Source: Actinomycetota bacterium
GTDB lineage: Bacteria; Actinomycetota; Acidimicrobiia; IMCC26256; PALSA-610
Assembly (NCBI GenBank): GCA_003134555.1
Contig: PLBO01000091.1
Coordinates: 1-53,594, forward strand
Direction of reading: 5' to 3'
DNA length: 53,594 nucleotides
The notes beneath the pieces were generated by a model. That model saw only the letters and a program-made list of their open reading frames with translations, had not been told where the DNA came from and did not search any database. This document shows positions 3,522 through 13,265 of the stretch, in pieces. Every line of letters starts with the position of its first letter. Position 1 is the stretch's first letter. The position numbers were made by a program, and so were the translations under genes.

Positions 3522-6500
3522 TCAGCTGACGGCGTCGGCCTGGGCCAGGACCCGCCCGTATCCGCCGCGCTGCGCGACCGCGCGGGCCTCTCGCACGAGC
3601 CGCTCGATCTCGCGCTCGTCGGCGGCACGGCCCCCGGCGCGCAACACCGTCGCGGCACACACCATGGCCTGCGCGACCCAATACGGAGCGTCGATGCGCG
3701 CCGCGGTCGACGTCGCCTCCGCGAAATGCTCGAGCGCGTCTTCTCGGCGACCGCAGGCCGCGTCGACCAGACCGAGCCAATGGTGGCCCGCACCCAGCAC
3801 TGCGCCGCCGGTGCCGAACACGACGACGTGATCGGCACACGGTTCGAGGAACTCGCCGAGGAGCTCCAAGAGGTGATGATCCTCGGCCGCGGCCGCGACT
3901 CCCGAGAACAGGGCCACCGCCGCGAGCCAGAACACGTCGCGGGGAAGCCCGGATCCGTCGGGACCGAGAGTGTCGTTGGCGATGGCCGATGCGCGCTCGG
4001 TCTGCCCGACCTCGGCACAGGCGGCCGCGACCAGCGCGGCACCGGCCCGGAAGACGGATCCCGCACCTCCGACCTGGCGGAGGTTGGCGAGCTCCTCCGC
4101 GAGGCGGCCCTGCTGGAAGCGCACGACGAACCGCTGCAGGAGATGCGCGCCGATCGAGCTCTGCTCGAGCTCGCGCCCTCGCAACGCGGCACCGCGTGCG
4201 AGCTGCTCCGCGGCGACGAGATCGCCGCGGCGTGTCGCTTGCGTCGCACGCAACGCGGCGGCCCAGTAGATATCGCGCGGACTGCCGAACTCGGTCGCCG
4301 ACCGCTCGTATTCGTCGAGGCTGGCGTCGAACTCGACCATCAGGGCGTTCTCGACGAGATCCGACAGCAGCGATCTATGAATGAGCAGCCGCAGCTCGCG
4401 CGGTCCCCCTTCGCGCGCCAAGAGCTGCCACGCGTCCGACGCCACCTCCAACCTTTCGCGTCGCGCCTGCGGTTGGTGCGTATACCAACGGTGGAGCGCG
4501 AGCTGCGCGGTGGCCCGCGCGCCGGGATCGTCGACGACCCGTGCGAGCGCGACGGCGTCGCGCGCGAGATCGCCTTCGCGATCGGGGTCGGTGTAGTACA
4601 GGTCGGACGCGATCCCGTTCAGGATCTGCACCCGGCGGACGAGATCCTCGTCTCCAATGCCCAAGAGCGCTTCTTCGAGCAACGGCAGCGCGGCGGGTTG
4701 GAACTCGGCACCGGAGCTCCACGGACCGTCGGCCGCGAGCGCCACGTCGGCGAGCAGGGCCGCGTCGCGCTCGCCCCGCGCAAACTCCGCGGCCGCGAGG
4801 TACGGCGCGCGGGCCAGCTCGAGCCGGCCGTCGTTCGCGTACGCGCGCCCGAGCGCGAGCAGCATCCTTCCGCGGCCGGGGTACACCGTCGACCGGTCCG
4901 CACGGAGCCGCAGCGCCTGCTCGTACCAGCGCGCCGCCTCGGCGAACGCGAAGCGCGCCGCGGCATCATCACCCGCGCGAGCGGCGTACTCGGCGGCCTT
5001 CTCCGCCAAACCGAGCGGCGCGGCCTCACCGAAGTGCCGCGCGAGGTCGACGCACCGGCGCGGCGTCATCGCCTCCGACTGCTCGAGGGCCTCGCCGGCC
5101 CGTCGATGCAACAGTATTCGCCGATCCGGCGCGATCGCGGCGTACACCGCGTTGCGCGTCAGCATGTGGGGGAAGAGATACCGCTCGACGTCGTCGAAGT
5201 CCTCGACGAGGAGCCGCGCGGCAAGGCTCTCCTCGAGCGCGTGGAACACGGCCGCGCTCGGGATCCGGCACATGCTCGCGAGCAGGTCGACGGAAACCTC
5301 CCCGCCGAGCACCGACGCGGCGTCGAGAACTTCCCGCGCTCGGTCGGTGAGGCGATCGAGTCGTCGATCGACCAGCGCGCGAACACCGGCCGGCGCGATC
5401 GTCGCCAGCGTCCGGGCCAGGTCGCCCTCGACGTCGGACTTCGCCGGCTCTTCGTCGAGCTCCCTCAGCAGCTCGCGCAGGAAATAGGGGTTCCCGCCCG
5501 TGATGCCCTGCAACGTGCCCGAAGCATCGATGATCATGGGCATCGTCTCGGGCAGCGCGGCCGAGCGAATCAGCGCGCGGACCTCGTGGTCGCCGAACCC
5601 GTCGAGACGCAGGGTCGTGGTGCTGGCCCGCGGCGCGAGGTGCTCGATGAACTCGGCGCGCTCGCCGATGAACTCGTCGTCGCGGAGCGTGGCGACGACC
5701 AGCAGGTGATCGAGTCGCGGATGTCGCTGCAGATATCGGAGCAGCGCGAGCGTCGGACGGTCGGCCCAATGGATGTCTTCGACGACGAGCACGATCGGCG
5801 TCTCGGCCAGGCGTTCGAGCGTCGTGGCGATCGCGTCGAACAGCCGGAATTGCGCGCCGGGCGCGTTGGTGTCGCCGGAAACCTCGCTCGACGACTGGTA
5901 GGCCGCGAGCTCCGGCAGCACGAGCCGGAGGGCGGTCGGAAGCTCGGAACGGCTCGACTCGTCGAGTCGCTTCACCAGCACCCGCAAGATCTCCGCGACG
6001 GGTTGATAGTCGCCGGCCGGATCGGGGTCGCAGTAGCCGAACAGCGGCACCGCGCCCTGGCACCGAAGGCGCTCGCAGTATTCCTCGACGAGGGTCGTCT
6101 TGCCGATCCCGGGTGGTCCGACCACGAGCGCCGAGCGGCGTTGCCCGTCGCGCGCCTCGTCGTAGAGCTCGACGAGGCGTCGGAGCTCGTCGCGGCGGCC
6201 GATGAACCGAACGCTCGACCACCCCCGTTGTGGCATCGCATGCGACATCGAGTGCGGCGCGACGAAATCGAGCGTCGAACGCTGCAACAACACGTCCTCT
6301 TCGAGACGCCGCAGGAGCGCGGACGGCGCGATCCCGAGATCGTCGTCGAGCCGGCGGGCCAGATCGGCGTACGCGCGCAACGCATCGCCCTGGCGACCGC
6401 TCCGGTAGAGCGCGCGCATGAGACTCTCCGTGAGCCGTTCGCGCAGCGGATGTTCCTTGATCGCCGCGGTCAGCGAATCGATGACGAGTGAGTGATCACC

Positions 6501-7028
6501 CAAGGAGAGCCGGACGTCGGCCAGCTGCTCGATGGCCACGATGCGCAGCTCCTCGAGCCGCGCGATCTCGGCGCGGGACGCGCTGAGATCGCGCGCGTCG
6601 GCCAGCGCGGCGCCGCGCCACAGGTCGAGGGCCTCGGTGAGACGGGGAACGGCGGCCCCGGGATCGCCGTGCGCGTCCGCCTCGCGCGCCAATACGAGGA
6701 GCCGTTCGAAGCGCTGGACGTCGAGCTCGTCGGGCTCGACCCGGAGCACGTAGCCGTGCGGACCCGCGGGCAACCGGCCGTTCGGGGCACTCGGGTTGCG
6801 ATCGAGCTCGAGCACCTGGCGGAGCCGGCCGATGTGCACTCGCAACGCGGTCGGCGCGCTCGGCGGCGGATCTCCCTCCCAGAGCTCCTCGATCAGCTCC
6901 TCCGAGGGCACCGAACGATTCGGGCGCATGGCCAGGAGCACGAGCAGCTGGCGCGGCTTGGCCCCGCGGAGCGAGACCGGCGACCCGTCATGGCGGATCT
7001 CGGTCGGACCGAGGATTCGAAGCTCCAC
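3522..7028 (-). CDS. SARP/BTAD-type transcriptional regulator with AAA ATPase and TPR-like C-terminus
   Basis: 1168 residues. Residues 1-95 form an OmpR-type winged-helix DNA-binding domain (starts MELRILGPTEI; ALRVHIGRLRQVLE). About 96-245 is the bacterial transcriptional activation domain (ELDVQRFERL, ALRAYADLARRLDDDLG). A STAND-type ATPase follows: Walker A GPPGIGKT (304-311) and Walker B IVLVVEDIHWAD. The C-terminal half is Ala/Leu/Arg-rich with helical TPR-like repeats. Such regulators activate secondary metabolism or stress genes in actinobacteria, with ATPase and TPR parts as signal input. It stands alone on its strand. Direct CCGTTT repeats lie about 80 bp upstream of its start. Target genes unknown. 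Confidence 0.92.
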   Translation of the reverse strand: MELRILGPTEIRHDGSPVSLRGAKPRQLLVLLAMRPNRSVPSEELIEELWEGDPPPSAPTALRVHIGRLRQVLELDRNPSAPNGRLPAGPHGYVLRVEPDELDVQRFERLLVLAREADAHGDPGAAVPRLTEALDLWRGAALADARDLSASRAEIARLEELRIVAIEQLADVRLSLGDHSLVIDSLTAAIKEHPLRERLTESLMRALYRSGRQGDALRAYADLARRLDDDLGIAPSALLRRLEEDVLLQRSTLDFVAPHSMSHAMPQRGWSSVRFIGRRDELRRLVELYDEARDGQRRSALVVGPPGIGKTTLVEEYCERLRCQGAVPLFGYCDPDPAGDYQPVAEILRVLVKRLDESSRSELPTALRLVLPELAAYQSSSEVSGDTNAPGAQFRLFDAIATTLERLAETPIVLVVEDIHWADRPTLALLRYLQRHPRLDHLLVVATLRDDEFIGERAEFIEHLAPRASTTTLRLDGFGDHEVRALIRSAALPETMPMIIDASGTLQGITGGNPYFLRELLRELDEEPAKSDVEGDLARTLATIAPAGVRALVDRRLDRLTDRAREVLDAASVLGGEVSVDLLASMCRIPSAAVFHALEESLAARLLVEDFDDVERYLFPHMLTRNAVYAAIAPDRRILLHRRAGEALEQSEAMTPRRCVDLARHFGEAAPLGLAEKAAEYAARAGDDAAARFAFAEAARWYEQALRLRADRSTVYPGRGRMLLALGRAYANDGRLELARAPYLAAAEFARGERDAALLADVALAADGPWSSGAEFQPAALPLLEEALLGIGDEDLVRRVQILNGIASDLYYTDPDREGDLARDAVALARVVDDPGARATAQLALHRWYTHQPQARRERLEVASDAWQLLAREGGPRELRLLIHRSLLSDLVENALMVEFDASLDEYERSATEFGSPRDIYWAAALRATQATRRGDLVAAEQLARGAALRGRELEQSSIGAHLLQRFVVRFQQGRLAEELANLRQVGGAGSVFRAGAALVAAACAEVGQTERASAIANDTLGPDGSGLPRDVFWLAAVALFSGVAAAAEDHHLLELLGEFLEPCADHVVVFGTGGAVLGAGHHWLGLVDAACGRREDALEHFAEATSTAARIDAPYWVAQAMVCAATVLRAGGRAADEREIERLVREARAVAQRGGYGRVLAQADAVS

Positions 7029-7203: not shown

Positions 7204-7599
7204 ATGTCGCCGGATCCATCCAGTGGTACTCCCCAACCCATGCTTCCCAGCAACTCGCTCGTCATGGCCGCGAACAACGCGCTCGCGAGGCCCGACTTTC
7301 GCGACAGCGTCCGGAAGATGCACGCCGAGGGCTACCCGCTCGTCAAGATGGTCGAGGCTCTGGGCCTCGAGGACGAGATGACCAAGCGGATCCGCCAGAT
7401 CCTCGAAGCGCTGCCCGCCGACGTCATCGAGGGAATCCGCAAGGCGACCATCGAGATGCTCGACTCGAAGGACTACGTGATGCCGCTCGATTGCACCGTG
7501 ACCGACGCCGAGCTCGACGAGGGCATCCCGGTCGAGGTCGAGGTGCTTCCCGAGATGGGCAAGGACACGATTCACGTCCGGCCGCTGTTGTCGAGCTGA
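7204..7599 (+). CDS. Conserved-looking small acidic protein of unknown function
   Basis: 131 residues from ATG 7204, preceded by GAGGAGG at 7194-7200, one of the best Shine-Dalgarno sequences in the window although only 3 bases from the ATG. The protein is soluble and mostly helical (MAANNALARPDFRDSVRKMH, VVEAL-like and IRQILEALPADVIEGIRKA segments), ending in a short beta-like part (VEVEVLPEMGKDTIHV). No signal peptide, membrane segment or known motif. It lies 35 bases ahead of the response regulator at 7635 and may be cotranscribed with it. Function unknown. Confidence 0.7.
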   Translation: MSPDPSSGTPQPMLPSNSLVMAANNALARPDFRDSVRKMHAEGYPLVKMVEALGLEDEMTKRIRQILEALPADVIEGIRKATIEMLDSKDYVMPLDCTVTDAELDEGIPVEVEVLPEMGKDTIHVRPLLSS

Positions 7600-7634
7600 C
7601 GACCGCGCCGAAGCGGCGAGACGCGACGGGAACC

Positions 7635-8309
7635 ATGGATCCCACGAACCCGATCCGGCTCTTGCTCGTCGACGACAAGCTGATCGTGCGCGAGGGCGTG
7701 CGCGCCTTCCTCGACCAACAATCGGGATTTCAAGTCATCGCCGAAGCGGCCAGCGTGGCCGAGGCGACGGCGCTCGACGTCCGCCCCGACGTCGTCGTCA
7801 CCGACGTCGTGCTCCCCGATGCTCGCGGCAGCGACGTCGTCACCGGGCTCTGGGGACGGTTCGCGCCCGCGGCGATCTTCGTGCTCACCGACGTCGACCA
7901 CGACGCGCTGTTGGAACGAATCGTGTCGGCCGGAGCAGGCGGCTACGTGCTGAAAACCGCGACGGCAGCCGAGTTCCTGTCCGGCCTACGCGCCGTCGCC
8001 CAAGGTGTGCAGTACGTGCAACCGTCGCTGCGCCACGCCCGCGAACGTCAATACGGGGCGTCGGCGACAGGAACGTCGGAGACACCCGACCAGACGATCG
8101 TCGGCTCGTTGAACGCGAAGGAGCGGGAGGTTCTGCGCTTCCTCGTCCTCGGGCACACGAACTCCGAGATCGCCGAGCTCAGCAAGGTCAGCCTGCGGAC
8201 GGTCGAGGCGCGGCGGGCCCGCATCCTGCAGAAACTCGGTGTCCACACCCGCGCCGAGCTCGTCCGGGTCGCGCATCGCATAGGCAACACCGATTTCGAG
8301 CACGTCTGA
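7635..8309 (+). CDS. NarL/FixJ-type response regulator (receiver + LuxR HTH)
   Basis: 224 residues from ATG 7635. Receiver domain 1-125: acidic pair in LLVDDK, phospho-acceptor Asp57 in VVVTDVVLPDARG, and conserved Lys in GGYVLKTATAAEF. The C-terminal LuxR-type DNA-binding domain (about 155-215) contains LNAKEREVLRFLVLGHTNSE and VSLRTVEARRARILQKLGV. It is the first of two response regulators in a run that also holds a histidine kinase (10306), so the kinase is its candidate partner. A strong GC hairpin overlaps the stop codon and may separate it from the next gene. Confidence 0.93.
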   Translation: MDPTNPIRLLLVDDKLIVREGVRAFLDQQSGFQVIAEAASVAEATALDVRPDVVVTDVVLPDARGSDVVTGLWGRFAPAAIFVLTDVDHDALLERIVSAGAGGYVLKTATAAEFLSGLRAVAQGVQYVQPSLRHARERQYGASATGTSETPDQTIVGSLNAKEREVLRFLVLGHTNSEIAELSKVSLRTVEARRARILQKLGVHTRAELVRVAHRIGNTDFEHV

Positions 8310-8333
8310 CGCCCGCCCACGTCGGCGGGCGTC
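8308..8333 (+). terminator. Perfect 10-bp hairpin after the first response regulator
   Basis: GACGCCCGCC and GGCGGGCGTC flank a 6-base loop, starting on the last bases of the stop codon. There is no following T-run, as is common in actinobacterial terminators. It may end transcription or stabilise the upstream transcript before the second response regulator 90 bp downstream. Confidence 0.55.
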
Positions 8334-8423
8334 GAGGGCGCCGCGATGTGAACTTCGTCTCATGTCCGGTCCGCGACGGGCTCAGCCGTCAAGCGCTCCG
8401 GCGGTGTTGGTCGTAGCTCTGGT

Positions 8424-8846
8424 ATGGCTCTCGCACCCCTCTCCATGCCTCCGACGGCCGTGCACCGCGGCGGACGGCGCGTGCTGTTCGCGGACGACGA
8501 CCCAGGGATGCGTGCGATCGTCCTGTTGAACCTCCAAGCCGAGGGCTTCGAGGTCACCGCCGTCGAAGACGGCGAGGACGCGCTGCGGGAAGCGGCACGC
8601 CTGCTCCCCGACCTGATCGTGCTCGACGTGATGATGCCCGGCCGAGACGGTTTCGAAGTGCTCCGGGTGTTGAAGGCCCGACCCGAGACCGCGGCCATCC
8701 CGGTCGTGCTCCTGACCGCCAAGGCGACCGACTCCGACGTCTGGGAGGGCTGGAAGTCGGGTGCCGACTACTACATGACGAAGCCGTTCAATCCCGAAGA
8801 TCTCGCGAATTTCGCGAACCACGTGCTCGGATTCGGGGACATCTGA
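8424..8846 (+). CDS. Stand-alone receiver (CheY-like) response regulator
   Basis: 140 residues with a single receiver domain: RVLFADDDPGM acidic pocket, Asp68 in LIVLDVMMPGRDG, Thr in VVLLTAKA, Lys in YYMTKPFNPEDL. There is no output domain, so it probably works by protein-protein contact or as a phosphate relay. Its last base is the first base of the protease ATG at 8846, so the two are translationally coupled. With the histidine kinase at 10306 it could form a two-component pair, while the protease between them may be an output or an input processor. Confidence 0.92.
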   Translation: MALAPLSMPPTAVHRGGRRVLFADDDPGMRAIVLLNLQAEGFEVTAVEDGEDALREAARLLPDLIVLDVMMPGRDGFEVLRVLKARPETAAIPVVLLTAKATDSDVWEGWKSGADYYMTKPFNPEDLANFANHVLGFGDI

Positions 8847-10345
8847 TGCGGCGCACGACGCGACGCGCCGTGCCGCACCCGGCCGCCCTGCTCACGCTCC
8901 TGGCGGTGAGCTTCGCCGCGACCCCGGCCGCGCACGCGGTCGTCACCGGATCAGAAGCCACGGTCATCGTCGAGGCGACGAGCGCGACCGCGGCAGCGAA
9001 CGCGGTCGCGACCGCCGGAGGGCACGTCGATCTCACGCTGCCGATCGTCGACGGCGTCTCCGCCCATGTTCGTCCGGACGCTCGGGCGACGCTCGAATCC
9101 GACCCGACGCTGCACGTCATCCCCGACGCGACACTGCACCCGACCGGCGCGTCGTTTCGGGCCGCGTCGACCGACACCCAGATCTCGGCGCTCGACCCCC
9201 CGGCCGGCTGGTCGCTCGACGCGGGCCGCGGTGTCACGGTCGCACTCGTCGACACGGGCGTCACCGACACGCCCGACCTCCACGGAAGCCGGCTCGTACG
9301 CGGACCCGATCTCTCGGGTGAACGCGACGGCATCGACCACTACGGCCACGGAACCTTCATGGCCGGCTTGATCGCGGGCGACGGAACCGCGAGCAGCAGC
9401 GCGACGACGCGTCACCTCGGAGTCGCCCCCGCGGCGACGCTCGTATCGGTCAAGGTTGCGGGCGCCGACGGATCCAGCAGTGTGTCGCGTGTCATCGCGG
9501 GCATCGGCTGGGTGGTCGGCCACCGTGACGCGTACGACATCGGCGTCCTCGATCTCTCGTTCGGGGTCGATGCGCCGATGCCGTACTGGAACAACCCGCT
9601 CTCGGCCGCGGTCGAAGCGGCGTGGGCGTCGGGCATCTCCGTGGTCGTCTCTGCCGGCAACGACGGTGCCGGACACGTGACCTCGCCCGGCAGTGATCCG
9701 TACGTCATCACGGTCGGCGCCGCCGACACCGCGGGCACCGCGTCGACCACCGACGACGTCGTGCCGGCGTGGTCCGGCACTGAACGCTTCCACGGGTATT
9801 CGAAGCCCGACGTCGTGGCTCCCGGTGTCTCGGTCGTGTCCCTCCGGGCGCCGGCCTCGACGATCGACGTCACGCACCCCGAAGGTCGCATCGACGACGT
9901 GTACTTCCGAGGCAGCGGTACCTCGATGAGCAGCGCGCTCGTCTCGGGCGCGGCCGCGGTGTTGCTCAGCCACCATCCGGCGGCCACGCCCGACGACATC
10001 AAGGGCGCGCTCGTCGACGGTGCGGCGAAGCTCGCGGGCGGGGCACGCGCGATCGACCTCGATCGCGCCGACCACGCCGAGCCCCGCCCGGCCTGGTGGC
10101 AGCACTACCGGGTCGCGTTCGACGGATTGGGCCGCGGACTCGACCACGGGATGCCGTGGACGGCATCCCGATGGACCGCATCCCGATGGACCGCGTCACG
10201 GTGGACCGCCACGCGCTGGACGGCAACGCGTTGGACTGATTCCGAGTGGGCGGCCTCGCGATGGACTGCGAGCAGGTGGACCGCCAGCCGGTGGACCGCG
10301 AGTAGATGGACTGCAGAGGCATGGCCGTCGCTGGGCTGGGGCTGA
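8846..10345 (+). CDS. Secreted subtilisin-like (S8) serine protease with Trp-rich repeat tail
   Basis: 499 residues. Signal peptide at 1-31 (ALLTLLAVSFAATPAAHA). A short propeptide-like region precedes the S8 domain: catalytic Asp136 (VALVDTGV), His168 (HYGHGTFMAG), oxyanion Asn in VVVSAGNDG, and Ser360 (GTSMSSALVSGAAAVLL). All three triad residues are present, so it should be active outside the membrane. The C-terminal 70 residues are unusual: eleven 5-residue units of the WTASR type, ending WPSLGWG. The coding region starts on the last base of the receiver gene and its repeat end overlaps the start of the histidine kinase by up to 40 bases, implying tight coupling. Confidence 0.93.
   Translation: MRRTTRRAVPHPAALLTLLAVSFAATPAAHAVVTGSEATVIVEATSATAAANAVATAGGHVDLTLPIVDGVSAHVRPDARATLESDPTLHVIPDATLHPTGASFRAASTDTQISALDPPAGWSLDAGRGVTVALVDTGVTDTPDLHGSRLVRGPDLSGERDGIDHYGHGTFMAGLIAGDGTASSSATTRHLGVAPAATLVSVKVAGADGSSSVSRVIAGIGWVVGHRDAYDIGVLDLSFGVDAPMPYWNNPLSAAVEAAWASGISVVVSAGNDGAGHVTSPGSDPYVITVGAADTAGTASTTDDVVPAWSGTERFHGYSKPDVVAPGVSVVSLRAPASTIDVTHPEGRIDDVYFRGSGTSMSSALVSGAAAVLLSHHPAATPDDIKGALVDGAAKLAGGARAIDLDRADHAEPRPAWWQHYRVAFDGLGRGLDHGMPWTASRWTASRWTASRWTATRWTATRWTDSEWAASRWTASRWTASRWTASRWTAEAWPSLGWG
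10157..10321 (+). repeat. Eleven tandem 15-bp units encoding WTASR-type pentapeptides
   Basis: Units read WTASR x3, WTATR x2, WTDSE, WAASR, WTASR x3, WTAEA. The DNA copies differ mainly at third codon positions, so the protein pattern is kept by selection more than by recent slippage. Regular Trp and Arg suggest a cell-envelope or polymer-binding tail; this is inference. Confidence 0.85.
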
Positions 10346-12354
10346 GCGCGGCGCCGTCCCGGCGACCGAAGCGGCTGGAACGCCGCGTCGGCACGCTCAT
10401 CGGCGCCCAGCTCGCGGTCGCCGCCGGCTTCGGGCTGCTCGCACACACCCGCGGCGCCGTCTTCGGACGTCCGTGGGTCGTCGCGATCCTGGTGTTGGCG
10501 TTCGCCGTCACCGGCTCCTTCGGAATGTCGCTCGAGCTCCATCGTCACCGCTTCACCTTCACGCTCGCAGAAGCGGTACTCGCGGTGGGCCTCTTCGTGG
10601 TCGGTCCCGTCGGCCTCGCGGTCGCGGCGGCCGTGGGCGAGGGCGTCAACATGGTCGTGCAGCGGCACGCGGCGCTCAAGGTCGCGTTCAACGTCTCCAA
10701 CCGGCTCGGCGCGACGACGGCCGCGGGCGTCGCGTTCGCGGCGCTCGGCCGCACCGACGTGCACGACGCCATTGCTTGGGTAGCCGCGCTCGCCGCCGCG
10801 TTGTGCTTTTCGGTCCTCGACGTGGTCTCGACCGCGGCCGTCCTCTCGATCGTGGAGGAGACGAGCTTTCACAACGTGTTCGTCCGTTCGGCCTCGACGG
10901 GCGTCCTCGCGACGCTCACCGCGGCGCCCGTCGGCCTCGTCGCACTCGACCTCGCCTCGCACGGGCCGTTGGTTCCCCTACTGCTCGCACCCATCGCGGC
11001 CGCGGTCGCCCTCAACGCCAAGTACGCGGTCGGCCAGCGCGACGAGCACCTGCGCTTCGAGCGCCTGTACGAGTCGTCGGCGCGTACGGCCCGCCTCGTA
11101 GCACTCGACGACGCACTGCGCTCACTCGCCGCCGAGACCCGTTCGCTCGGCACGGGTATCGCGGCCTTCTGCTGCGCGACCGGCGCTGACGGCGAATGGC
11201 GCGGGGCCTACTCCGACGACGACGGCGAACGGCTCGCGGCGCCGCACACCGTCGAGTCCGTGGCCGCGTTCGCCGAACGCGTCGGGGGCGGAGAGGTCGA
11301 CCTCGCCCACGCACCCGAGGTGATGCGCATCGCCTCCGGCGCGAGGAGCGCGGTCGTCGTCTCGTCGGTGCAGGAGAACACCGGCCGGGTCGTGCTGCTC
11401 GTGTTGCGAGACGGGGCCGCCGACGCCGGCGCCCACAGTCGCGTCGAGACGCTCGCCGCGTTCGCGCACAACGCGGCTCTCATCGTCTCCAACGCGCTGC
11501 TCCACGAAGAGCGCGCGGTCGCGCTCGCCCGGCAGGTCGACCTCAACCGGCAGAAGAGCGACTTCGTCGCGGCCGTGTCCCACGAGCTGCGAACGCCGCT
11601 CGCCGTGATGCTCGGTTCCGTGCACACGCTCGAGCGGCTCGACGGCCGGATGACCGACGAGCAACGTTCGCAGCTGTTCGACATGACCGTCGATCAGGGC
11701 GCGCGCCTGCAGCGACTCATCGACGAGCTCCTCCTGGTAGCCGCCGCCGAGCATTCCGAGGTGCAGCTTCAATGCGAGCCCGTCGAGATCTCGGATCTCT
11801 ACGCATCGATCGCGGCGGCCACCGCCGCGTCGATCGGACCCGATCGCCTCGTCTGGGCGGCCAACGGAGCCGGACGCGTCGTCTCCGACCCTTCGAAGAT
11901 CGAGCGCATCCTGCTCAACCTCGTCGAGAACGCGGCGAAGTACGCGCGGGACGAGCCGATCGAGCTCCAGGCCGCGCGCGTCGGCGACGAAGTGCGGCTC
12001 TCCGTCGTCGACCACGGGCCCGGCATTCCCGAGTGCGACCGCGAGCGTGTCTTCGAACGGTTCGTACAGCTCGATCAGTCGTCGACACGACGCCAAGGCG
12101 GGACGGGTCTCGGGCTGCACCTCTGCCGGCAGTTGGCGGAGCTCGTCGACGGCCGCATGTCGCTCGACGAGACGCCCGGAGGCGGTTGCACCTTCGCCCT
12201 CACGATCCCCTGCACGGCGTCGAACGCGCTCGAGACGTCCGACACCGGCACGACCGACAACCTCACCGCGTTTCCGTTCGGCAACGTGCGCGCCCGTCCG
12301 GTGGAGCTCGCACATTCACTCCGGGATTCGGCACTGCCGGACCACGCGCGATGA
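10306..12354 (+). CDS. Membrane-bound sensor histidine kinase
   Basis: 682 residues from ATG 10306; ATG 10321 is an alternative. Residues 25-240 contain about six or seven hydrophobic segments forming an integral membrane sensor, then a cytoplasmic linker and GAF-like region (about 255-400). The HisKA motif KSDFVAAVSHELRTPL has phospho-acceptor His426. The ATPase domain shows an N box (ILLNLVENAAKYA), G1 (DHGPGIPE), F box (FERFVQLD) and G2 (GGTGLGLHLC). It overlaps the protease gene upstream and the ParA-like gene downstream (ATGA), so three genes are translationally linked. Natural partners are the response regulators at 7635 and 8424. The stimulus is unknown. Confidence 0.93.
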   Translation: MDCRGMAVAGLGLSAAPSRRPKRLERRVGTLIGAQLAVAAGFGLLAHTRGAVFGRPWVVAILVLAFAVTGSFGMSLELHRHRFTFTLAEAVLAVGLFVVGPVGLAVAAAVGEGVNMVVQRHAALKVAFNVSNRLGATTAAGVAFAALGRTDVHDAIAWVAALAAALCFSVLDVVSTAAVLSIVEETSFHNVFVRSASTGVLATLTAAPVGLVALDLASHGPLVPLLLAPIAAAVALNAKYAVGQRDEHLRFERLYESSARTARLVALDDALRSLAAETRSLGTGIAAFCCATGADGEWRGAYSDDDGERLAAPHTVESVAAFAERVGGGEVDLAHAPEVMRIASGARSAVVVSSVQENTGRVVLLVLRDGAADAGAHSRVETLAAFAHNAALIVSNALLHEERAVALARQVDLNRQKSDFVAAVSHELRTPLAVMLGSVHTLERLDGRMTDEQRSQLFDMTVDQGARLQRLIDELLLVAAAEHSEVQLQCEPVEISDLYASIAAATAASIGPDRLVWAANGAGRVVSDPSKIERILLNLVENAAKYARDEPIELQAARVGDEVRLSVVDHGPGIPECDRERVFERFVQLDQSSTRRQGGTGLGLHLCRQLAELVDGRMSLDETPGGGCTFALTIPCTASNALETSDTGTTDNLTAFPFGNVRARPVELAHSLRDSALPDHAR

Positions 12355-13265
12355 TCCGCGACCTCCGCTCCTCGCAATGGAGAACGGCATCGCCGCCGTC
12401 GAAGTCGCTCGCGTTCGCGCGCGACGACATCGTGCGCGCCGGCGCGATCCAACCGGCGATCGCCGGCGCGAAGACGGATCGTGCGTTGACGATCGCCGTG
12501 ACCGCGCCGCGCTCGATTACCTGCAAACGCGGCCTCGCCGCGAACCTCGCGGCCCACCTCGCGGCCCGCGTCACACCCGATGGGTCGTCGGTGTGCGTCG
12601 TCGACACCGACCTGGAATCCCGTGACGTCGGTATCCGGTTCGACGTGACCGCCCCGACGCTGCTCGACGTCGCGAACGACATGGCCCTGCGCGACGGTCG
12701 CGCGCGTCTGTCCGAGCTGATCCCGCGCATCGACCCGCCGGGTCTGCACGTTCTTCCCACCCGGCTCCCCCAGAGCGCGCTCGTGCCGCTCCTCCACAGC
12801 AAGACGACCGCGCTGCTCGGACCACTGCGCGCGGCGTTCGACTTCGTCGTCATCGACGCGCCGGTCTGCGTCGGTCTCGGAACCTTCGACTGGGAGCGGA
12901 CGATGCTCCGTCAGGTCGACGTGCTGCTCGTCGCGGTGACCGCCGAAGCGTCGGCGGTCGGCGGCGTGCTCCGCTATCTCAATGCGATCGCCGCCGCGAA
13001 GAACAATGGCGCGCTCCCGCCGACGTTCGACGCCCACGTGGTACTCACAGGCCGCGACGACGACGGCACGCGGGCGCTCCTCACCGAACGCGACATCGAT
13101 CGCAAGCTGCGCGGGATACCAGTCATTGCGTTGGTTCCACAGTTGTGGGGGCGTCAACGCCCGGAGTCTGCGCTCGACCTCGACTTCCACGCCGGGCTGC
13201 ACCGCGAGTTCTCGGGCGTCATCGATCGGGTCATCGAGGATCAGCAGAGTCGACGCGCGCTCTGA
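12351..13265 (+). CDS. ParA/MinD/TadZ-like ATPase with degenerate P-loop
   Basis: 304 residues from ATG 12351, sharing ATGA with the kinase stop. The fold is visible from the A' motif (SVCVVDTDLESRDVGIRFD), Walker B (FDFVVIDAPVCVG) and the late strand VLLVAVTAEASAV. At the Walker A position, however, TAPRSITCKRGLAANLAA replaces the usual KGGxGKTT: the second Lys is retained while the Gly-Gly and Thr are lost. CpaE/TadZ proteins of type IV pilus systems show similar decay, but the N-terminus here (about 50 residues) is not a clear receiver domain. Probably a localisation or scaffold protein acting with the kinase. Nucleotide hydrolysis is doubtful. Confidence 0.7.
   Translation: MIRDLRSSQWRTASPPSKSLAFARDDIVRAGAIQPAIAGAKTDRALTIAVTAPRSITCKRGLAANLAAHLAARVTPDGSSVCVVDTDLESRDVGIRFDVTAPTLLDVANDMALRDGRARLSELIPRIDPPGLHVLPTRLPQSALVPLLHSKTTALLGPLRAAFDFVVIDAPVCVGLGTFDWERTMLRQVDVLLVAVTAEASAVGGVLRYLNAIAAAKNNGALPPTFDAHVVLTGRDDDGTRALLTERDIDRKLRGIPVIALVPQLWGRQRPESALDLDFHAGLHREFSGVIDRVIEDQQSRRAL

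Follow-up and report, generated by a model that had tools for sequence, protein, structure and literature searches.

A Trp-tailed subtilase gene and its membrane sensor partner: conserved pairing, exchangeable outputs and a candidate extracellular sensing module

Organisation of the locus

The window analysed here is the whole 53,594-nucleotide stretch of contig PLBO01000091.1 (assembly GCA_003134555.1), from an Actinomycetota bacterium. Six of its genes, all on the forward strand, encode in order a 131-aa protein without a Pfam or NCBIfam match (7204..7599), a NarL/FixJ-type response regulator consisting of a receiver and a LuxR-type HTH (7635..8309; PF00072, 2.2e-13; PF00196, 1.2e-13), a stand-alone receiver (8424..8846; PF00072, 2e-26), an S8 protease (8846..10345; PF00082, 2.6e-40), a membrane histidine kinase (10306..12354) and a ParA/MinD-like protein (12351..13265; AAA_31, E 3.4e-4, below the cut-off).

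The LuxR-type regulator is separated from the next gene by a 114-nt gap without overlap. Beyond it, the genes and serial overlaps described by an earlier sequence-only reading proved real, the overlaps amounting to 1 base between receiver and protease, 40 or 25 bases between protease and kinase, and 4 bases between kinase and ParA-like gene. The kinase reading frame opens at ATG 10306 (40-base overlap), and the alternative ATG 10321 (25-base overlap) is an equally good start. The 25-base position holds GTG or ATG in all nine loci compared, which is weak evidence because the TGG codon in part dictates where it falls; a conserved 40-base overlap was rejected, the corresponding ATG not being kept in relatives. 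Overlapping starts are common in high-GC genomes, and on the sequences alone the overlaps mean little; the case against chance rests on conservation.

The receiver-protease-kinase order was present in all eight operons found in the same family, each with the stand-alone receiver directly 5' of the protease, and at least five genomes from further afield share it; L092 and L095 carry receiver and kinase as one fused protein (confirmed by Pfam for L092). An order unique to one genome would have counted against the sequence-only reading, and it recurs in relatives. The four-gene order claimed there held for its first three members and was not supported for the ParA-like gene, which was found in three genus-level operons only, its orthologues being one in G051 and a contig-edge fragment in G053. 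The LuxR-type regulator is likewise kept in three same-genus operons, and by their distribution in the sequences both genes are genus-level additions. Close relatives of the 131-aa protein were found only in G000, G051 and G053 among 58 genomes of the order, with two more weak matches. An intact deviant Walker A motif of ParA/MinD proteins reads KGGxGK[ST]; inspection by eye revealed no such motif in the product of 12351..13265, where the corresponding stretch is degenerate (APRSITCKRGLAANLA, near-identical in L066). The ParA-like protein is probably not a core part of the system, and both it and the 131-aa protein, being genus-restricted, were dropped as core components.

The protease and its tryptophan array

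The protease has a signal peptide (recognised by eye), a predicted subtilisin-type propeptide (residues 38-99, 8957..9142; AlphaFold and Foldseek), a catalytic domain (residues 127-396, 9224..10033; Pfam PF00082) and a C-terminal Trp array. Residues D136, H168, N272 and S360 were invariant across 45 sequences, AlphaFold pLDDT exceeded 90 for most of the propeptide and core, and the best Foldseek matches were the unprocessed pro-subtilisins 3afg and 3whi. With an Asp/His/Ser triad, a PF00082 match above the cut-off and a matching modelled fold, the protein classifies as a subtilase (MEROPS S8) of predicted activity. The closest NCBIfam protease model was the T7SS mycosin TIGR03921, an identity rejected at 125.6 bits against a cut-off of 278.75. 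Mycosins carry a C-terminal membrane helix, whereas the window protease has the array in its place.

This array (10157..10342), absent from the sequence-only reading, comprises 13 tryptophans at an exact spacing of five residues with the consensus WTASR, and the protease ends one residue past the last of them. AlphaFold predicts it to be disordered (pLDDT about 30). The spacing and small residues agree with a pentapeptide beta-helix motif; this assignment was dropped, since the Pfam pentapeptide model matched one of six arrays at a sub-threshold E of 0.027 and disorder is predicted.

The arrays are under purifying selection (median pS 0.55 versus pN 0.25, with pN below pS in 66 of 69). In the window, 16 pentad pairs are identical in amino acids and none in DNA, and the same holds for L065 (WTASR x9), with 36 identical amino acid pairs and none identical in DNA. 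Pentads are uniform at the protein level in many proteins, as in L092 (WNGSA x21), and the dominant pentad varies between lineages and, within G051, between the kinase operon (WTSTR) and the EAL operons (WNGSS). Heterogeneous arrays also occur, with 11-12 different pentads in L077 and 13 in L102, the tryptophan being invariant throughout. Acidobacterial relatives carry six-residue Trp repeats instead of pentads. A census based on TGG recurring at 15-nt intervals in the DNA was abandoned: it matched 139 of 296 genomes, and no count was taken from it because many matches were other repeats.

The kinase and its membrane sensor domain

The kinase combines an N-terminal MASE9-like membrane sensor domain (10360..11178) with Pfam-defined HisKA phosphoacceptor (residues 416-482, 11551..11751) and HATPase_c (residues 528-636, 11887..12213) domains. 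Together with its receiver partner, to which phosphotransfer would occur, it constitutes a two-component system. The best NCBIfam matches of the kinase core were PnpS and PhoR, both below their cut-offs.

The membrane domain is predicted to fold like the S-component of an ECF transporter (model residues about 54-221). Its model reached a Foldseek TMt of up to 0.72 to the S-component fold and VIA Z scores of 11-14 to ECF S-components and NikM/CbiM (rows 1-21). A PDB search with the sequence profile of the domain returned 12 matches at E up to 10, none of them an S-component, and one stand-alone membrane relative weakly matched PF12822 (E 0.0027). MASE9 (PF20972) was not detected in the window kinase, either with a 198-aa fragment or over the full protein at E 0.01; matches of relatives ranged from 1.3e-5 (L153, over the cut-off) to 0.34, and the stand-alone protein L159 also exceeded the cut-off. 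Profile comparison linked the stand-alone membrane proteins to the kinase domain (96.5%, E 7e-10); the membrane protein downstream in L162 gave a poor alignment to this group and was excluded before profile A6 was built. A topology from helix parity was dropped: seven predicted helices and a cytosolic kinase would place the positively charged N-terminus outside. Within the family the domain is rare, with 22 copies in 14 genomes and 0-4 per genome.

Pairing of protease and membrane domain across genomes

For this comparison, 75 S8 genes carrying three or more W pentads were collected by their similarity to an S8-W alignment, a route that may overlook divergent Trp-tailed proteases; 20 of the 75, from the family and order, were picked from the best matches. 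L085, L093 and L094 were left out of the pairing, distance, pentad and selection counts as duplicates of L068, L084 and L077, respectively. A membrane-domain gene lay directly downstream on the same strand in 52 of the 75 and upstream in five more. Among the other 18, eight proteases sit less than 900 nt from the downstream contig end and ten lack a partner despite available flank. The Trp-tailed protease of L205, counted separately, also lacks one. By comparison, none of eight non-Trp S8 loci in the family had the membrane domain nearby.

The 52 downstream partners comprise 20 histidine kinases, two histidine kinase-receiver hybrids and 30 GGDEF or GGDEF-EAL proteins. The suggestion that the protease belongs with the kinase was supported, and the pair recurs across phyla; it is not confined to two-component systems, the same type of protease adjoining c-di-GMP enzymes more often. 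Carriers include Actinomycetota, Chloroflexota and a Dormiibacterota genome, along with the Acidobacteria with six-residue repeats, whose proteases adjoin either an HD-GYP protein or a membrane protein standing alone; in five Acidobacteria, the protease is followed by such an output-less protein.

In the family, 10 of 22 membrane domains had no protease next to them; in a phylum-level sample the figure was 21 of 39 (rows chosen by hand, roughly one in four of those listed, with a row belonging to the window swapped for a neighbouring one; L254 was added deliberately and left out of this count). Hence the domain can sense without a protease. Weak matches of profile A2 are expected to be unlinked, as A2 was trained on protease-linked domains.

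Across 51 pairs, S8-core and membrane-domain distances were correlated (r 0.73, 0 of 2000 permutations as high). Array composition followed the membrane domain after removal of S8-core distance (partial r 0.21, 0 of 2000), and when the membrane domain was controlled for instead, its correlation with the S8 core was nearly as large (partial r 0.17, 1 of 2000); all of these Mantel tests leave shared species history in. The L092/L095 pair takes different positions in the S8 tree and the membrane-domain tree, which implies at least one exchange of partner in this clade.

A candidate sensory module

From gene order and its conservation, the common membrane domain, the swapped outputs and selection on the array, we propose that the protease and the kinase membrane domain together form a single sensory module whose outputs can be exchanged, the state of the protease setting kinase activity, a proposal we regard as evenly balanced between right and wrong. 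The subtilase would be secreted as a zymogen, and its W-x4 array would remain at the cell surface and engage the extracellular face of the kinase membrane domain, with its predicted ligand-binding fold of ECF S-components. Arrival, activation, inhibition, substrate cleavage or array shedding may each alter kinase activity, and phosphate would pass to the adjacent stand-alone receiver, the LuxR-type regulator or both. The module would thereby drive a two-component system in the window, and in relatives the pair would feed GGDEF-EAL, GGDEF or HD-GYP outputs instead. A more specific version, possible but doubtful, is that the zymogen carries its own tandem Trp-repeat ligand, which, intact or cut loose, is read by an ECF-S-fold receptor with an interchangeable output (histidine kinase, GGDEF-EAL, HD-GYP or none), lineage-specific pentads insulating paralogous systems in one cell; such a module would be previously undescribed.

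It is rather unlikely that the protease is the output, with the kinase or c-di-GMP enzyme using the S-component-like pocket to sense another cue and controlling a co-transcribed surface protease anchored by its array to a glycan, lipid or membrane. Such an arrangement would follow ordinary operon logic, the membrane domain is often found without the protease, and aromatic repeat arrays can bind polysaccharides; it nevertheless leaves unexplained both the output-less proteins 3' of the protease in five Acidobacteria and the recurrence of the same membrane domain as partner whatever the output. We consider it unlikely, too, that the array is a multi-copy peptide precursor, from which the subtilase or another protease frees near-identical pentapeptides for autocrine or quorum signalling through the neighbouring receptor. 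Uniform pentads with diverged synonymous sites (L065, L092), the lineage-specific dominant pentad and the difference between the G051 kinase and EAL operons would all suit a ligand, and S-component folds such as RibU, ThiT and BioY bind small ligands from outside. The heterogeneous arrays of L077 and L102, with their invariant tryptophan, suit structure better than a defined ligand, however; the pentad copies abut without spacers and no cleavage signal was identified. That the genes are unrelated neighbours overlapping by chance in a compact, high-GC genome can hardly be right, for all the frequency of overlapping starts at such GC content: it is contradicted by 52 of 75 directly downstream partners, in several phyla, for a domain present at 0-4 copies per genome in the family.

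Comparison with known systems

The HisKA and HATPase_c kinase with an adjacent receiver resembles canonical membrane two-component systems of the PhoR/PnpS type; its input differs in being an S-component-like membrane domain, with a Trp-tailed subtilase gene between receiver and kinase. MASE-type sensors (MASE9, PF20972) likewise join a multi-helix membrane input to GGDEF/EAL or HD-GYP domains, and relatives match this family weakly to borderline, whereas the present domain also occurs on histidine kinases or alone, is paired with an S8 gene and, in the window copy, falls below Pfam detection. Relative to the ECF S-components RibU, ThiT, FolT and BioY, which share the predicted fold, it is fused to signalling domains, and its sequence matched no S-component in the PDB. 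PopC of Myxococcus, and Kex2 acting on alpha-factor repeats, are subtilisin-like proteases involved in producing or processing signals. They too place a subtilase upstream of signalling, but with protease and repeat substrate as separate proteins, where the window has one polypeptide. HmrC of the Caulobacter HmrABCX pathway is a membrane signalling protein that its authors predicted to be S-component-like (PMC11481889), as is predicted for the window kinase; it differs in that no subtilase partner is mentioned in the part of that article considered here.

In the open-access literature searched, we found no description of the protease-membrane sensor pair and no described signal for MASE9-like domains, the sole MASE9 match being an unrelated cancer paper. 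Because the membrane part stays while the inner signalling part swaps, the pair resembles a widespread and so far undescribed means of sensing something outside the cell, and since outputs are swapped, it should be separable and open to testing with chimeric reporters. A further puzzle is the strictness with which tryptophan is kept at each fifth position, given that the other repeat residues drift from lineage to lineage. If functional, the pairing would provide a candidate input for MASE9-like membrane sensor domains, and would link extracellular proteolysis to two-component and c-di-GMP signalling.

Organization and conservation of the operon

The locus lies in a 4.63 Mb draft genome and comprises six co-directional genes (7204 to 13265). 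The first (7204-7599) encodes a 131-amino acid protein and the second (7635-8309) a NarL/LuxR response regulator; next come genes for a stand-alone receiver (8424-8846), for an S8 protease (8846-10345), for a membrane histidine kinase (starting at 10306 or 10321 and ending at 12354) and for a ParA/MinD-like protein (12351-13265). The sequence-only reading had described receiver, protease, kinase and ParA-like genes as overlapping in series from 7635; the overlaps match that description, but the gene at 7635 is the response regulator, which does not overlap the next gene. Divergent from the operon, the complementary strand encodes an 1168-amino acid protein (3522-7028) that by eye resembles a BTAD/AfsR-type regulator, and a neighbour of this type is retained beside the operon in L067 (73%) and in L066, there as a fragment at the edge of a contig. 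The Walker A motif of the ParA/MinD-like protein lacks the canonical residues (APRSITCKRGLAANLA), as does that of its L066 orthologue, and the protein is possibly a genus-specific pseudo-ATPase.

Conservation of the receiver-S8-kinase order, the combination singled out from the sequence, was borne out by eight operons of the same family (the window, L065, L066, L067, L068/L069, L070, L071 and L072), with L068/L069 counted as one operon presumably broken by contig ends. L065 is a second such operon in the window's own genome (contig C61), approximately 63-71% identical to that of the window and without the LuxR, ParA and 131-amino acid genes. The LuxR regulator and 131-amino acid gene were restricted to three operons of the same genus; the ParA-like gene was confined to two, with a fragment at a contig edge in addition. 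Elsewhere in the phylum, five loci (L090, L119, L225, L227 and L241) have a receiver directly upstream of a tryptophan (Trp)-tailed protease that is accompanied by a kinase or a membrane-domain gene, whilst receiver and kinase were fused in L092 and L095 (by Pfam for L092).

The protease and its tryptophan array

By eye, the S8 protease has a signal peptide; residues 38-99 are predicted to form a propeptide of the subtilisin type, and the catalytic domain covers residues 127-396. AlphaFold pLDDT exceeded 90 over most of these regions, and the top structural matches of the model were unprocessed pro-subtilisins. Asp136, His168, Asn272 and Ser360 were invariant in 45 sequences. From approximately residue 438 to the protein end there are 13 tryptophans at an exact spacing of five, mostly as WTASR, and in 45 of 72 arrays with at least five pentads and complete 3' ends the last tryptophan fell exactly one residue before the terminus. 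The dominant pentad varies between lineages. Pentad pairs identical in protein numbered 16 in the window, 36 in L065 and 21 in L071, none of them identical in DNA, and recent slippage was seen in a few arrays (L086, L145). Among 69 arrays with at least seven pentads, the median difference between repeats was 0.55 at synonymous versus 0.25 at nonsynonymous sites, with pN below pS in 66; because repeats differ less at nonsynonymous sites, the array is under selection.

Pairing of protease and membrane domain

An alignment of 20 Trp-tailed proteases (A1) was utilized as a search query and retrieved 80 named loci; 77 of these (three duplicates removed), the window and 20 family or order loci formed the census set, which held 75 S8 genes with at least three W pentads. 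A gene with the membrane domain of the kinase followed directly on the same strand in 52, including the first protease of the L077 tandem pair, where the second intervenes; these partners comprised 29 GGDEF-EAL proteins, one GGDEF protein, 20 kinases and two kinase-receiver hybrids. In another five the membrane-domain gene was upstream (three opposite strand, two same strand), eight lay less than 900 nt from a contig end, and ten had no membrane-domain gene despite available flank, though GGDEF genes were found near L142 and L156 and a GGDEF-EAL fragment near L083. The membrane domain was likewise absent from the 11-kb stretch inspected around the S8 gene of L205 (G049:C191; 10 W pentads). Carriers include Geodermatophilus, Blastococcus, Kineosporia, Dactylosporangium, Actinoplanes and Frankiales, as well as Acidimicrobiia, Thermoleophilia, Chloroflexi and Dormiibacterota. 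Tandem related subtilase genes with Trp repeats occurred in L077, L120, L160, L163 and L218, some pairs preceding a single membrane sensor gene; in L106 and L123 (Virgisporangium) an S8 gene with 16 W pentads is followed by a 609-610 amino acid protein that is not a recognized sensor.

Within the family, 22 copies of the membrane domain were counted in 14 genomes; 11 adjoin a Trp-tailed protease, 10 do not, and one is truncated where its contig stops, with the protease presumably on another contig. Conversely, the domain was not found near any of the eight profile-recognized family S8 loci without Trp arrays, nor near a ninth (L198) not recognized as S8 by profile. Across the phylum it was detected in 93 of 296 genomes (E 1e-10), and among 39 copies sampled by hand (L254, included on purpose, being left out of the counts) 16 adjoined a Trp-tailed protease, two an S8 protease without pentads and 21, mostly weaker matches, neither. 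These counts indicate that Trp-tailed proteases are usually partnered, whilst the membrane domain is not always accompanied by a protease.

Related acidobacterial S8 proteases carry C-terminal Trp repeats, frequently with a six-residue period (VWGNS, ALWGGN). Those of L136, L139, L146, L147, L151, L153, L160 and L163 adjoin HD-GYP or GGDEF/HD-GYP proteins with a MASE9-like domain, whilst in L137, L143, L154, L159 and L164 the next gene encodes a membrane protein of 231-267 amino acids with no output domain. Four of these five matched MASE9, L159 falling above the cut-off, and that of L143 weakly matched an ECF transporter family (0.0027); a profile of all five could be aligned to the kinase-type domain across 179 columns (96.5% probability).

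Predicted fold of the membrane domain

The AlphaFold model of the membrane domain (pLDDT mostly 80-97) placed the S-components RibU, FolT, ThiT, BioY and PanT near the top of a Foldseek search (best E 1.6e-3, probability 1.00). With VIA-align, rows 1-21 (Z 11.2-14.2) were all S-components or NikM/CbiM, followed by Lnt at 9.5, although Z below approximately 13 in helical bundles can reflect a common arrangement. S-components were absent among the matches of a PDB sequence-profile search. Since the same family consistently fills the top ranks, an S-component-like receptor fold is predicted; in Caulobacter, PMC11481889 describes HmrC, a sensor likewise predicted to be S-component-like.

Joint evolution and exchange of outputs

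Distances between S8 cores and membrane domains were correlated across 51 adjacent pairs (r 0.73; maximum of 2000 permutations 0.15), at 0.91 for kinase pairs and 0.51 for c-di-GMP pairs, values that include shared species history. The paralogues of genome G051 (one kinase operon, two EAL operons) grouped by partner type. The kinase label required three changes on the S8 tree and four on the membrane tree, two and three of them, respectively, forced by well-supported branches; output exchange therefore took place several times. L092 and L095 fell beside the G051 EAL-linked proteases in the S8 tree and elsewhere in the membrane tree, a partner exchange, which speaks against the two having been inherited strictly together. 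Array composition correlated with the membrane domain once the S8 core was removed (r 0.21, 0/2000 permutations), and with the S8 core once the membrane domain was removed (r 0.17, 1/2000), which lends weak support to a possible matching of array and receptor.

Every part of the system falls in known families or domains, whilst no account of the pairing, of its spread or of the exchange of outputs turned up in a search of open-access literature. The protease could be merely an output of the sensor system, but this would leave unexplained both the stand-alone membrane proteins and the retention of one and the same partner with all four output types. On the favoured interpretation, the secreted protease and the S-component-like receptor would together form one input module. 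Contact with the receptor may be made through the Trp tail, the obvious candidate because it is the conserved, selected and predicted-disordered part of the protease; it could act as a ligand, as a tether or by anchoring the protease to the cell wall.
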